Below are positions 9,319 to 50,139 of a DNA stretch of 64,000 nt, piece after piece. Location of the stretch: NCBI GenBank assembly GCA_013297775.1, contig JAAFIL010000001.1, positions 1-64,000 on the forward strand, in the 5' to 3' direction. The stretch comes from Bacteroidota bacterium (GTDB taxonomy: Bacteria > Bacteroidota > Bacteroidia > B-17B0 > Aurantibacillaceae). Made by a program: the position numbers and the translations under genes. A model generated the notes under the pieces. That model was not told where the DNA came from and did no database searches. It worked only from the letters and a program-made list of their open reading frames with translations. Position 1 is the first letter of the stretch; each line of letters begins with the position of its first letter.

Positions 9319-11816
<2,498 letters not shown>

Positions 11817-11967
11817 GATGTTGTTTTTATTTTAGAAGTTATTTAAAGTCAAATTAAGTAAAACCTTTATGCGCCTTTTTGATTTTTACTTTAAACAACT
11901 TCTTAGTTAACGCCTAAGGTTTTATGCCGAGGCTCTGTTTAAAAATTCATCATTTAATTATATACAC

Positions 11968-12327
11968 ATGAAAATTATATTTTATATCTTTCTATTAGTT
12001 GGGTTTGTAAAAGAAATAAACGCTCAAACTAAATCTAGTTTAATAACTGCTACTATTAATGTAAGTGGCAATTGCGATGCCTGTAAAAAACGTATTGAGA
12101 ATGCCGCCGATATTAAAGGGGTTAAACGTTGTACCTGGGACGAAACAACTAAAATAGCCACGGTGTTATTTGATGCCAGCAAAACCGACTTAAAGCTTAT
12201 TGAAAAGGCCATTGCTGCCTCGGGACACGAAACCCCTCAAGAACTTGCCAATGCGCAATCTTACAAAAAATTACCCGATTGCTGCCAATATAAAACTAAA
12301 ACCTGCGATAAGCCCGAGAAAAAATGA
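11968..12327 (+). CDS. periplasmic heavy-metal-associated (HMA) domain protein
   Basis: This 119-residue protein has a signal peptide (MKIIFYIFLLVGFVKEINAQ) and one HMA/CopZ-like fold with the metal-binding motif GNCDACKKRIE (about 31-41). The body continues VKRCTWDETTKIATVLFD, the typical beta-strand pattern of the fold. A second group of cysteines lies at the C-terminus (DCCQYKTKTC). It probably binds a soft metal ion in the periplasm and hands it between the upstream HYC_CC_PP protein and the TonB-dependent receptor, whose start overlaps its stop by 4 bases. The metal identity is not shown by sequence. Confidence 0.9.
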   Translation: MKIIFYIFLLVGFVKEINAQTKSSLITATINVSGNCDACKKRIENAADIKGVKRCTWDETTKIATVLFDASKTDLKLIEKAIAASGHETPQELANAQSYKKLPDCCQYKTKTCDKPEKK

Positions 12328-46336: not shown

Positions 46337-46669
46337 TTAATAACTGTGTTGGGTAAATAGTAAGCGTAAGATTTCTTTTTCACGGGCTTTAATGTCTTCT
46401 AATTCTTTTAGCAGGTTATCTTTTAAATTAAAATTTGCCCATTCATTTTCGAACTGATTATTGTTTGTAGAGGTCATACTTGCATTTAAAAGTTGCGACA
46501 CCTCTATTTTAAGTATTTTCGCCGCTCTTATTAACTGATTAATTGTAAATCCATCACTTCTGTTTTCAAGTCGGCTGTATTGACTTTGACTAAGGTACAT
46601 CTGGTCGGCCATTCGTTCTTGGCTAAATCCTAAATCCTTCCGAAACTTTTTTAAACGGTCGCCTATCAT
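46337..46669 (-). CDS. XRE-family helix-turn-helix regulator
   Basis: This 110-residue protein has an N-terminal HTH_3 domain (about 3-60): GDRLKKFRKDLGFSQERMADQM, split here as it reads, followed by LSQSQYSRLENRSDGF in the recognition helix. The C-terminal half is charged and probably forms a coiled coil (LKDNLLKELEDIKAREKEIL). It is transcribed divergently from the first small peptide gene, 182 bases away start to start, and could control that cluster. It might alternatively be unrelated; no operator repeats were found that settle this. Confidence 0.88.
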   Translation of the reverse strand: MIGDRLKKFRKDLGFSQERMADQMYLSQSQYSRLENRSDGFTINQLIRAAKILKIEVSQLLNASMTSTNNNQFENEWANFNLKDNLLKELEDIKAREKEILRLLFTQHSY

Positions 46670-46768
46670 GTTTTGTGGTTATTAACTCGAATACAAGTTA
46701 CAACTTTAATTTTTATTTCTTACTTTTTTATGCAAAAAACACATAAATTTTATTTGTTTTATGCTATT

Positions 46769-46804
46769 AAGAATAATAGGTCTGAACAAAGTACCTTAAT
46801 TTTG
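46769..46804 (+). promoter_or_regulatory. shared-architecture promoter of peptide gene 1
   Basis: AAGAATAAT (46769-46777) lies 28 bases (start to start) before the -7 box TAATTTTG (46797-46804), which is followed by T and, a few bases on, AGTCT. The second peptide gene has the same two elements at the same distance. Confidence 0.6.
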
Positions 46805-46851
46805 TTTTGTCAGTCTCATTAAAAAAATGTTTAACAGTTAAAAATAAAAAA

Positions 46852-47172
46852 ATGAAGAAACTAATTTTAAGCGGTGTTATCCTAATGCTTTTTGCAGGGA
46901 TTTTAACACCCGAAATGAAAGGTAAAAGTAATTTAACGACCGCTCCCGTTCAAAACGGCGATGTTGACGAGCATTTAGAATTAGCGGCTGGTCAATCAGC
47001 CAGAGCTTCTGACGGTACTTATATTTCGCCAGCAAATTACCTTAGGGTAATTACGTTTTGCCCCGGGTGGGGTTGGTTTTGTAGGGGTAGTGCTACAATT
47101 GGTGGAGTAACCCAGAGTTACAACGGCAGCAAAGGCATTGGTAAGCCCGATATAATTATAGTTGAAAGTTAA
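46852..47172 (+). CDS. small secreted cysteine peptide 1
   Basis: This 106-residue protein starts MKKLILSGVILMLFAGIL, a signal peptide. The middle is acidic (DVDEHLEL) and leads to the core ARASDGTYI, then FCPGWGWFCRGSATI with two cysteines six apart, and ends SKGIGKPDIIIVES. It is paralogous to the peptide at 48814: ARASDGTYI, CPGWG, CRGSATI and KPDI are identical in both. I do not recognise a named family; gene size and neighbours recall the NVEALA-type secreted peptides of Bacteroidota. Start chosen at the ATG in 46852 because it begins the signal peptide. Confidence 0.72.
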   Translation: MKKLILSGVILMLFAGILTPEMKGKSNLTTAPVQNGDVDEHLELAAGQSARASDGTYISPANYLRVITFCPGWGWFCRGSATIGGVTQSYNGSKGIGKPDIIIVES

Positions 47173-47195
47173 GCTGTTTTACATAAATTTGAATT

Positions 47196-48278
47196 GTGGA
47201 ACGAGAACCAAGTAAAATAGCCGCTAAATTTTTACTAATTTTTATTTGCCTTATTGTTATTTTAGGGCTTATATGGCTATTCGCACCAAGTTCCGAAACT
47301 TCTGAAAGTAAAACGACAGTTAGAGTTAAAAACACGTTCTCTGGGTTAAAAGAACGTGTTTTTTCTACTATATCAATCAAAGACTCATTGGAGTTAAATG
47401 AACCTACTTACGATATTATTCAAAAAAATGGTTTGTTTTATACTATTTCAGGAGAAGTTGAAATTAGTCTAAATCTTGTTAATGCAAGGTTCAAGAAAAT
47501 AGAAAAAATAGACTTCGAAGATGCGGTAGTATGTAAATATAATAGCCATTCAAAGGACTTTATAGTGCTGTTCAATAATGAAACTGATAATCAGGTTTCT
47601 GCTTATACATTAAATGGAGCATCGCTCAATTTATTAACTGGTCATTTACCTTATGACTTTACTGCTCAATTTTACGATAATCGCTACATTTATTTAGGTA
47701 ACCGATTGGACAGTTTGTATTTACACCTACTAAACACACCCGCTGAAAAACACGATTCTCTGCTTTTAAATTCGGTTTATAAAAATTGGGGCAAGCAATT
47801 AGGTTTTGTTTTGAGTGGGAATTTTTTATGTTTCAAAAATACTATTTATCATTTCCCTATTCACTGTTCTTACGGGTTTAAAATGAACTTAGGAAGTTTA
47901 GATGTAAAGCCTTTTAATACTTTAGACAGTACACTTATTCCGACATTTAAAGAGGTAAATAATGGAGACGGGTTTTCGAAGTTTACAGTTGATCCTGAAA
48001 TTTTTGTAAATGTGAAGCAAAGTATTTATAAGAATCAGATAGCCAATTTGAGTTATTTGAGTACCTCGGCTACCAATAATTCGATGAATAATTCTGAAAC
48101 CGTTATAGATTTATATGACTTAGACATGAAGTATCTCTCTAGCTTTAAAATCCCGAATCATAATAAAACTTATTTTGTAATTTCATTTTGTTTCGATGAA
48201 CGTGAATCGCTATTGTATGTTTTATATTCTGATAATAAAACAATAAAAGTTTTTGACTTGAATGGAAAAGTTGATTAA
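47196..48278 (+). CDS. membrane-anchored beta-propeller-like protein
   Basis: This 360-residue protein starts with GTG, 23 bases after peptide 1. It has one N-terminal helix (about 9-30) and then an exported domain with repeating strand patterns (for example NNETDNQVSAYTLNG, SETVIDLYDLDMKYLSSFK and ISFCFDERESLLYVLYSDN). These fit a six-bladed propeller like those encoded next to small peptides in other Bacteroidota. Three cysteines lie in the propeller (including FLCFKN and PIHCSYG). The specific family could not be named; a role in binding or processing the peptide is inference from position. Confidence 0.65.
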   Translation: MEREPSKIAAKFLLIFICLIVILGLIWLFAPSSETSESKTTVRVKNTFSGLKERVFSTISIKDSLELNEPTYDIIQKNGLFYTISGEVEISLNLVNARFKKIEKIDFEDAVVCKYNSHSKDFIVLFNNETDNQVSAYTLNGASLNLLTGHLPYDFTAQFYDNRYIYLGNRLDSLYLHLLNTPAEKHDSLLLNSVYKNWGKQLGFVLSGNFLCFKNTIYHFPIHCSYGFKMNLGSLDVKPFNTLDSTLIPTFKEVNNGDGFSKFTVDPEIFVNVKQSIYKNQIANLSYLSTSATNNSMNNSETVIDLYDLDMKYLSSFKIPNHNKTYFVISFCFDERESLLYVLYSDNKTIKVFDLNGKVD

Positions 48279-48681
48279 ATATTTATTAGTATCTTATTTA
48301 GTTATGCACCTGTGCTTTCTTTTTAGTCTAAGCGGATCTTTATATGTCTATAATTCAGGGTATCCATTTTTAAACGTTAGTGTTTTAAAGATTATTTTTA
48401 CTGTTTTACCATACCTTTCAGGTTTAATAATTAGTTTCATCCTTTTGAATATTGCCTTTTACAGATACCTTTATTTTTTGCTTCTACTATTCACTTATTT
48501 TTACCACTTGAAAAGTTTAATTGAACAAAAATGCAGTATTTGCTCTGCCGCTGGCTTTTTACCAGGCTATAGTTACAAAACTCAACTTATTATCTACACC
48601 ATTATTTTACTTACATTGTTAGGAGATCTTTATTATTACTTTAAACATAAAAAAGTAGAAAATAGTAATGTCTATCAGTAA
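48262..48681 (+). CDS. four-helix membrane protein with CxxC, MauE/DoxX-like
   Basis: This 139-residue protein overlaps the propeller gene by 17 bases. It has four hydrophobic helices (about 5-28, 42-64, 67-85, 106-127) and a CSIC pair (about 91-94) just after the third helix. That layout resembles MauE/DoxX-type redox membrane proteins, which handle disulfide electrons. It could form or reduce the cysteine pair in the small peptides. This function is inference from the CxxC and from neighbours; sequence similarity to MauE is only suggestive. Confidence 0.62.
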   Translation: MEKLIKYLLVSYLVMHLCFLFSLSGSLYVYNSGYPFLNVSVLKIIFTVLPYLSGLIISFILLNIAFYRYLYFLLLLFTYFYHLKSLIEQKCSICSAAGFLPGYSYKTQLIIYTIILLTLLGDLYYYFKHKKVENSNVYQ

Positions 48682-48737
48682 AGCCATTTTTAATTTTATG
48701 CTCAAATTGCATAGACTTTTTTGTAATTATGCGCCAA

Positions 48738-48773
48738 AAGAATAATCATTTCGCAAAACCTGAAGTAATTTTG
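48738..48773 (+). promoter_or_regulatory. shared-architecture promoter of peptide gene 2
   Basis: AAGAATAAT (48738-48746) is again exactly 28 bases before TAATTTTG (48766-48773), followed by T and AGTCT. Apart from these elements, the two upstream regions differ. Confidence 0.6.
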
Positions 48774-48813
48774 TAATTGAGTCTGACACCAAATAAATTA
48801 TAAACTTAAAAAA

Positions 48814-49140
48814 ATGAAAATGAAAAAATTAATTTTTAGGGGTTCAACGGTTATCATTGCAATCCTATTTATCGCAATTCAATTAAAAAGTAGTGTTGGT
48901 AATGCCGCTAATATTTCACAACATGGACCAGATGTGGACGAGAAATTAGAATTGCCCGCTGGAGCAGAAGCGCGAGCAAGCGACGGAACGTATATTACTG
49001 CCGCACCAACCAATCGTATCATATACATTTGCCCTGGTTGGGGAAGATCGTGTCGAGGTAGTGCCACTATTGATAATCTTAGCATCACCTATAGTTCATC
49101 CAAAGGCTTTAATAAGCCTGATATTCTTATTATGGATTAA
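48814..49140 (+). CDS. small secreted cysteine peptide 2
   Basis: This 108-residue protein is a paralogue of the peptide at 46852. It has a signal peptide (MKMKKLIFRGSTVIIAILFI), the acidic segment PDVDEKLELPAG, then ARASDGTYI, ICPGWGRSCRGSATI and SKGFNKPDILI. The two cysteines and almost all glycines of the core are conserved, while the leader and the region between SATI and SKG diverge. It has its own promoter and ends in a terminator at 49196. It may encode a processed or disulfide-bonded product; its role is unknown. Confidence 0.72.
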   Translation: MKMKKLIFRGSTVIIAILFIAIQLKSSVGNAANISQHGPDVDEKLELPAGAEARASDGTYITAAPTNRIIYICPGWGRSCRGSATIDNLSITYSSSKGFNKPDILIMD

Positions 49141-49195
49141 CTGATGTGGGTTATTGCTACTTTTGAATTTTCTCAGATTTTAGCAATAAAAATGT

Positions 49196-49230
49196 AAAAA
49201 CGTCCAGCTAAATTTAACTGGATGTTTTTA
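49196..49230 (+). terminator. rho-independent terminator after peptide 2
   Basis: The stem AAAACGTCCAG/CTGGATGTTTT (one G-T pair) is followed by TTA, 56 bases after the stop codon. Confidence 0.8.
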
Positions 49231-49323
49231 TTAAATCAAAAACAACTTTAGTAGATTTACATTGCCATTAAGGCTTATCAAATGCTGGCTTATCCTTACA
49301 TGCTAACTACACCGTTTATAACT

Positions 49324-50139
49324 ATGAGAACTCTTTTTTTATTGTGGTTTGTATTCACAACCAACTTATTTCAGGCGCAAATAATTGTTGAGGGGAGGGT
49401 GTTAAGTGAGGAAACCAAACAACCCTTAGCTTTCGTTAATATTGGTATAGTTAATAAATCAGTAGGATGTGTATCTAGCGAAGACGGCCATTTTACCTTG
49501 AGTGTACCAGATAGTTTGAAAAATTCAGTCTTAAAATTTTCGATAATTGGTTTTCATACTAAAACTTACAAAATAAGTGAGGTAAAACAACTTGCTGGTA
49601 TTTATTTAAGTACAGGTTCTCAAGTGTTAGAAGAAATTACAGTATCGGCAAAAGCCACCCAAACAAAAATTTTAGGTAATAAAACAAAAGATAAAAAAAA
49701 TAAGGTATCCATGTTTCAAAATGCCGTTTCGGGTTCGGAAACAGCGGTTAAACTTGACATTAAACACAAAAATACATTTCTTAAGAAAGTATTTTTTAAT
49801 GTCGTTTCTTCAAATGTAGATCAAGCACTGTTAAGACTCAACATATACCGTATAGGCAGCGAGGGTATGCCTGGAAGCAATCTATTAAAAAAGAGCATTG
49901 TGAAAAAAGTACCCTTGAAAGAAGGTTTTGTTTACTTAGATATTTCAGCCGATAATATTTGGGTAGATGAACCCGTATTTATTTCGCTCGAAATGTTAAG
50001 CGGCATATCCAGTAATAATCAAGTTTATATTTCTACTAAAATGAATGCCAGCGAAACATTTACTAGGCGCACAAGTCAGGATAAATGGGACTGTATCCGC
50101 AATTTTGGGCTTGGCATACAAGTGGAAGTTAATTATTAA
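49324..50139 (+). CDS. exported protein with carboxypeptidase-regulatory-like domain
   Basis: This 271-residue protein has a signal peptide (MRTLFLLWFVFTTNLFQAQ), then a carboxypeptidase-regulatory-like beta domain (about 20-105; VEGRVLSEETKQPLAFVNIG, split in reading, and EDGHFTLSVPDSLKN). After a plug-like strand (LEEITVSAKA) comes a roughly 140-residue C-terminal domain of mixed strands without a known motif. It is not a TonB receptor; the barrel is absent. Start placed at the ATG in 49324 because it begins the signal peptide. It follows peptide 2 but is separated by a terminator, so co-expression is uncertain. Confidence 0.78.
   Translation: MRTLFLLWFVFTTNLFQAQIIVEGRVLSEETKQPLAFVNIGIVNKSVGCVSSEDGHFTLSVPDSLKNSVLKFSIIGFHTKTYKISEVKQLAGIYLSTGSQVLEEITVSAKATQTKILGNKTKDKKNKVSMFQNAVSGSETAVKLDIKHKNTFLKKVFFNVVSSNVDQALLRLNIYRIGSEGMPGSNLLKKSIVKKVPLKEGFVYLDISADNIWVDEPVFISLEMLSGISSNNQVYISTKMNASETFTRRTSQDKWDCIRNFGLGIQVEVNY

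Follow-up and report, generated by a model that had tools for sequence, protein, structure and literature searches.

What would a bacterium do with two paralogous secreted cysteine peptides encoded on either side of a propeller-like membrane protein and a second membrane protein carrying a CxxC motif? The question is raised by positions 46337–49231 of a 64,000-nucleotide stretch of Bacteroidota DNA (assembly GCA_013297775.1, contig JAAFIL010000001.1, positions 1 to 64,000), the whole of which is called the window here. In the reading we favor, to which we give about even chances, this locus is a cassette complete in itself, from which a small peptide, looped by a disulfide, is made in two versions and exported. 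The two peptide genes are genuine coding genes, old paralogues under purifying selection at the protein level. The peptide family is confined to one genome among everything searched, and the cassette belongs to no named family, lacking the defining features of NVEALA, DUF6520, MauE and bacteroidetocin loci.

The positions of the open reading frames (ORFs) bear out the gene order of the original prediction, which had been made from the sequence alone: an XRE regulator, peptide 1, the propeller-like protein, the four-transmembrane (four-TM) protein, peptide 2 and a carboxypeptidase-regulatory-domain protein. The features are as follows:

46337–46669, minus strand: candidate XRE/HTH_3 regulator (PF01381, 3.8e-9), divergent from peptide 1
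46770–46804, plus strand: promoter-like element of peptide 1, AGAATAAT-N19-TAATTTTG (exact match; leader alignment)
46852–47172, plus strand: peptide 1, 106 residues; TM or signal stretch, then DVDEHLELAAG..ARASDGTYI..CPGWGWFCRGSATI..KPDI
47196–48278, plus strand: TM-anchored propeller-like protein, 360 residues, GTG start (remote similarity to a hidden Markov model, HMM)
47328–47364, plus strand: terminator-like hairpin and T run near the 5' end of the propeller ORF; may act as an attenuator (folding against shuffles)
48262–48681, plus strand: four-TM protein, 139 residues, CSIC before the last TM, MauE-like (weak HMM similarity)
48739–48773, plus strand: promoter-like element of peptide 2, AGAATAAT-N19-TAATTTTG (exact match; leader alignment)
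48814–49140, plus strand: peptide 2, 108 residues; signal peptide (..SVGNA/AN), then CPGWGRSCRGSATI core
49194–49231, plus strand: intrinsic terminator 3' of peptide 2, end of the cassette (-16.2 kcal/mol, z -6.9)
49282–50139, plus strand: carboxypeptidase-regulatory-domain protein, 285 residues, probably outside the cassette (PF13715, 2.6e-13)
Contig 63 of the same genome, C63:131309–137138 (L080:1310–7139): second, divergent cassette of the same kind

The four-TM gene overlaps the propeller-like gene by 17 bases. The carboxypeptidase-regulatory gene, predicted as a member of the locus, is probably a separate unit, because the strong terminator at 49194–49231, whose minus-strand form was also picked up by the scan, follows peptide 2 and lies between the two.

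The two peptides and their expression signals

Peptides 1 and 2 are 49% identical in amino acid sequence and 57% identical in nucleotide sequence, and both contain the ARASDGTYI, CPGWG-x-x-CRGSATI and KPDI blocks that had been noticed at the outset. Synonymous differences occur at 25 of 105 codons, and 22 of the 69 mature codons compared differ in synonymous positions only. The ratio of nonsynonymous to synonymous substitution rates (dN/dS, NG86 method) is ~0.13 in the core (residues 42–86), ~0.19 in the mature part and 0.63 in the signal region, values that are approximate because dS between the two genes is saturated. It is this synonymous divergence, together with the low dN/dS of the core, that identifies the two as genuine old paralogues. 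The mature part of ~70–80 residues starts with an acidic linker and contains two cysteines. Signal peptides had been predicted for both; that of peptide 2 is well defined (SVGNA/AN), whereas the TM or signal stretch of peptide 1 lacks a clear cleavage site. The TTG listed as the start of peptide 1 (46807) is too early, because the promoter-like TAATTTTG ends at 46804, and the start used here is 46852. A census of 604 ORFs in 634 kb of the 4.35 Mb host genome found C-x-G-x-G-x(2-4)-C in four proteins, namely the two peptides, the contig-63 peptide and, by inspection, PheS.

In Bacteroidota, the -7 box is known to read TAnnTTTG. Exact copies of AGAATAAT-N19-TAATTTTG occur only twice in the 64 kb, upstream of peptides 1 and 2, where they end 40–47 bases before the start codons; with two mismatches allowed, there are three matches against 0.29 expected. 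Both peptide leaders also contain paired TTATGC repeats, 31 bp apart. Within the propeller ORF, the hairpin at 47328–47364 has a folding energy of -15.5 kcal/mol (z -3.5, reached by none of 200 shuffles) and exact arms that are unique within the window; such a hairpin lies in the first 300 nucleotides of only six of 273 other host genes. This hairpin is a possible attenuator, which would hold peptide output above that of the propeller-like and redox proteins, and it offers a concrete hypothesis on expression control.

The two membrane proteins

The 360-residue protein has a single N-terminal TM segment (residues 12–30) and, by the positive-inside rule, its remainder is predicted to lie outside. 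Against an HMM built from 14 propellers adjacent to NVEALA-type peptides it scores 13.5 bits, a value reached by none of 2000 block shuffles, while two controls, YidC and the 285-residue protein, score like their own shuffles. The name 'propeller' given in the original prediction is thus borne out as remote similarity but not as a family match: no Pfam match, to TolB_like and DUF5128 included, and no PDB sequence match was found, and an hhalign comparison of the single window propeller with the NVEALA-adjacent propellers is not significant. The AlphaFold2 (AF2) model is uninformative.

The 139-residue protein carries CSIC at residues 91–94, in the loop preceding the last TM segment. Simple hydropathy reveals three strong TM stretches; a fourth is likely from the sequence, and the CSIC loop should face the periplasm. 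The protein aligns colinearly to an HMM of peptide-linked MauE proteins (8.5 bits, reached by 4 of 2000 shuffles) and only weakly to a general MauE set (reached by 25 of 500 shuffles; hhalign probability 13%). No Pfam match was found, to MauE (PF07291) included, and its AF2 model consists of helices with no fold match. The name 'MauE-like' stands for a remote similarity and not for a family assignment.

Distribution and the contig-63 cassette

The peptides were searched in all genome sets, the propeller-like and four-TM proteins in some of them. None of these proteins has a match above chance in Pfam, NCBIfam or PHROGs, in keeping with the initial failure to recognize the peptide family. The profile search for peptide homologues that had been proposed at that stage was run on 87 genomes of the family and 395 of the class and came back without relatives; the exception is a protein on contig 63 of the same genome, matched at E = 0.007. 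The propeller-like sequence has no relatives in 60 relatives or the 395 class genomes, the four-TM protein has none in the 60 relatives, and nothing convincing emerged from plasmids, phages and viral contigs. Several matches were rejected: class-wide profile matches at peptide residues 67–100 are, by inspection, D-3-phosphoglycerate dehydrogenase (CPGLKAICRGGVGMDNIDVEYARSKG) matched by chance; the single genome-contig match, in Novispirillum, spans the junction of two metabolic genes unrelated to each other, dapA-like and enolase/mandelate-racemase-like by inspection, and is regarded as fortuitous; and weak matches in G075, G024, G022 and G381 are unrelated genes. The neighbours of TerC in two congeners are unrelated, and no empty site is demonstrable there.

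Within the portion of the genome that was read, the contig-63 cassette is the only other one of its kind. It encodes, in order, a 171-residue exported lipoprotein with the core CFCIGSGGSC (CxGxGxxC), an overlapping 412-residue propeller-like lipoprotein, a 164-residue lipoprotein with GCSGC, a C39-peptidase ATP-binding cassette (ABC) exporter and an HlyD adaptor. With an HMM of thioredoxin-like lipoproteins from NVEALA clusters, the GCSGC protein reaches 10.1 bits (none of 400 shuffles does), and with that of NVEALA-adjacent propellers the propeller-like protein reaches 8.7 bits (as do 4 of 2000 shuffles). A 13-bp hairpin (z -5.4) lies just 3' of the peptide stop codon, within the start of the propeller ORF. 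Because it was the peptide profile itself that led to contig 63, the core found there cannot count as independent evidence, in contrast to the neighbouring genes and the hairpin. The two cassettes have in common an exported CxGxGxxC protein, a propeller-like protein, a CxxC protein and a hairpin early in the propeller gene; unlike the window, contig 63 has a larger, lipoprotein peptide, a thioredoxin-like instead of a four-TM redox protein, and its own C39 ABC exporter with HlyD. The exporter sequence includes a short run of undetermined residues; the contig-63 cassette as a whole is a possible peptide export system.

Elsewhere in the window, at 11421–12327, lies an adjacent pair of small cysteine-rich ORFs with exported products, probably for metal handling; one of the two has the heavy-metal-associated motif GNCDACKKRIE.

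What the cassette may do

The original prediction had proposed disulfide handling of an exported product. This is still the best reading, and it gains support because contig 63, NVEALA clusters and MauE loci of CxC[GS]G type, the latter two compared below, all pair cysteine peptides with redox or propeller partners. Bacteroidetocin regions, too, combine cysteine peptides with a thiol oxidoreductase (PMC6671954). The peptides would be exported by Sec, and the C-P-G-W-G-x-x-C loop would close through a disulfide bond that the CSIC protein forms or exchanges, in the manner of other MauE/VKOR/DsbB-type redox membrane proteins. The periplasm-facing propeller may bind the peptide as chaperone, as presenter or for protection of the producer, and the two membrane proteins together probably fold and hold the exported peptides. 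The product would then be released or held in the envelope and act on other cells as a signal or an antagonist; that it takes part in interactions with other cells is our best guess, and no more than a guess. Several points weigh against this scheme. No homologues occur outside the source genome, hence neither the disulfide nor the co-occurrence of the genes lends itself to a comparative test; the similarity of the 139-residue protein to MauE is weak; that between the peptides and NVEALA is short, with full HMM scores near or within those of shuffles; no dedicated exporter or modification enzyme adjoins the window cassette; and both the core motif and the promoter-like element were counted only after they had caught the eye.

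A fairly unlikely alternative is that the peptides form a two-peptide, bacteriocin-like antagonist, with the propeller and/or the four-TM protein as its immunity, by analogy with bacteroidetocins. These class IIf bacteriocins are small cysteine peptides whose gene regions also encode an ABC transporter/peptidase, a TM protein and a thiol oxidoreductase, and whose leader of 15–16 residues ends in GG (PMC6671954). The window resembles them in its small cysteine peptides with a putative thiol-redox protein nearby; its peptides are strain-restricted, none being present in any congener searched, and the C39-peptidase ABC exporter and HlyD of contig 63 parallel the ABC transporter/peptidase, TM protein and thiol-redox protein of bacteroidetocin regions (PMC6671954). 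The window peptides, however, have no 15–16-residue leader ending in GG and are by inspection unrelated in sequence; no peptidase-ABC transporter was seen in the window between 34 and 62 kb, although there is one at contig 63. The mature part, ~70–80 residues with an acidic N-terminal linker and two cysteines, and the strong purifying selection between the paralogues also speak against an antagonist.

Less probable still is an envelope redox or stress sensor, in which the peptides, as substrates or regulators, would report the disulfide state of the periplasm and the propeller would act, under XRE control, as the sensor or an adaptor. The combination of a CxxC membrane protein with cysteine peptides would suit such a role, as would the shared promoter-like elements, the paired TTATGC repeats and the divergent XRE gene; yet the XRE protein has no recognized sensor domain, no operator is demonstrated, and the cassette was not found in relatives. 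That the locus is an accessory cassette, acquired by horizontal transfer or in decay and of no present function, as its restriction to a single genome and low GC content might suggest (32% against 37% for the window, with 27–31% in the two membrane genes), is very improbable given that all frames are open, the cores have low dN/dS, the promoter-like elements are paired and the terminator is clean.

Comparison with known Bacteroidota systems

The original prediction had also drawn a parallel to NVEALA peptides (PF14055), which we detected in 5 of the 395 class genomes and not in the source genome. These short exported peptides are mostly followed by propeller-type lipoproteins of 340–400 residues (the four checked by Pfam are all TolB_like, PF15869, or DUF5128, PF17170), and several clusters hold a CxxC thioredoxin-like lipoprotein. 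The CxGxG..C core is present in 7 of 18 distinct NVEALA-type peptides; among 901 distinct ORFs of other loci it occurs nine times, in seven NVEALA peptides, the contig-63 peptide and one propeller. The parallel is apt in that the window peptides share this core and peptide 1 is directly followed by a propeller-like gene, likenesses that rest on association and not on a Pfam criterion. An hhalign comparison joins the two cores with E 4.5e-4 and a probability of 33%, which is only suggestive. Family membership does not follow: the window peptides have no N-[VI]-E-A-L-A motif and no match to PF14055 up to E 1, and the demonstrated resemblance is one of core and gene surroundings, falling short of homology between the peptides. 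Further differences are the ARASDGTYI, RGSATI and KPDI blocks, unique to the window, its TM-anchored instead of lipoprotein propeller, and the MauE-like protein in place of a thioredoxin-like one. The NVEALA clusters L164, L166, L167 and L170 also contain a LepB-like signal peptidase I (by inspection), a candidate for a dedicated processing peptidase, and divergent two-TM regulator-like proteins.

The second comparison is with exported two-cysteine peptides encoded beside MauE (PF07291). In a non-random sample, made up of the 30 highest-scoring loci from 99 genomes, CxC[GS]G-type MauE adjoins an exported peptide with at least two cysteines in four of five loci (six of seven when two further loci are added), against 3 of 25 for the CGCFG type. 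Several of these peptides are DUF6520 (PF20130) by Pfam, and others are recognized by size, signal and cysteines only. They resemble the window peptides in length (~90–105 residues), in export, in having two or four cysteines, in lying directly beside a CxC MauE gene or, in the window, a MauE-like one, and in being duplicated within a locus. The window differs in having CSIC where MauE has CxCGG, in its extra propeller gene and in its peptides, which have no PF20130 profile match and no detectable homology to DUF6520-type peptides. At two CGCFG-type loci with MauE proteins of ~300 residues (L107 and L108, in G086 and G122), the small adjacent peptides, of the form ALDED..VYNYPEVC...CxC, bear a resemblance to exported peptides of NVEALA-like type.

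Although NVEALA and DUF6520 peptides are named families, none of 5.39 million open papers searched in full text deals with them. Some Bacteroidota are said to be without general disulfide machinery (PMC6671954), and a general question can be put to the test: do Bacteroidota keep redox proteins reserved for individual exported peptides? We suggest tentatively, while leaning against it, that the window, contig-63, NVEALA–propeller and two-cysteine-peptide/MauE cassettes are variants of one unrecognized Bacteroidota system, in which a secreted peptide closed by a cysteine pair, often with CxGxG..C, is served by a dedicated propeller and/or a dedicated CxxC or CxC redox partner; in some of them, a hairpin inside the propeller gene would set the amount of peptide relative to its partners. 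The window cassette unites the partners of both peptide types, propeller-like as with NVEALA and MauE-like as with DUF6520, in one operon-like unit.

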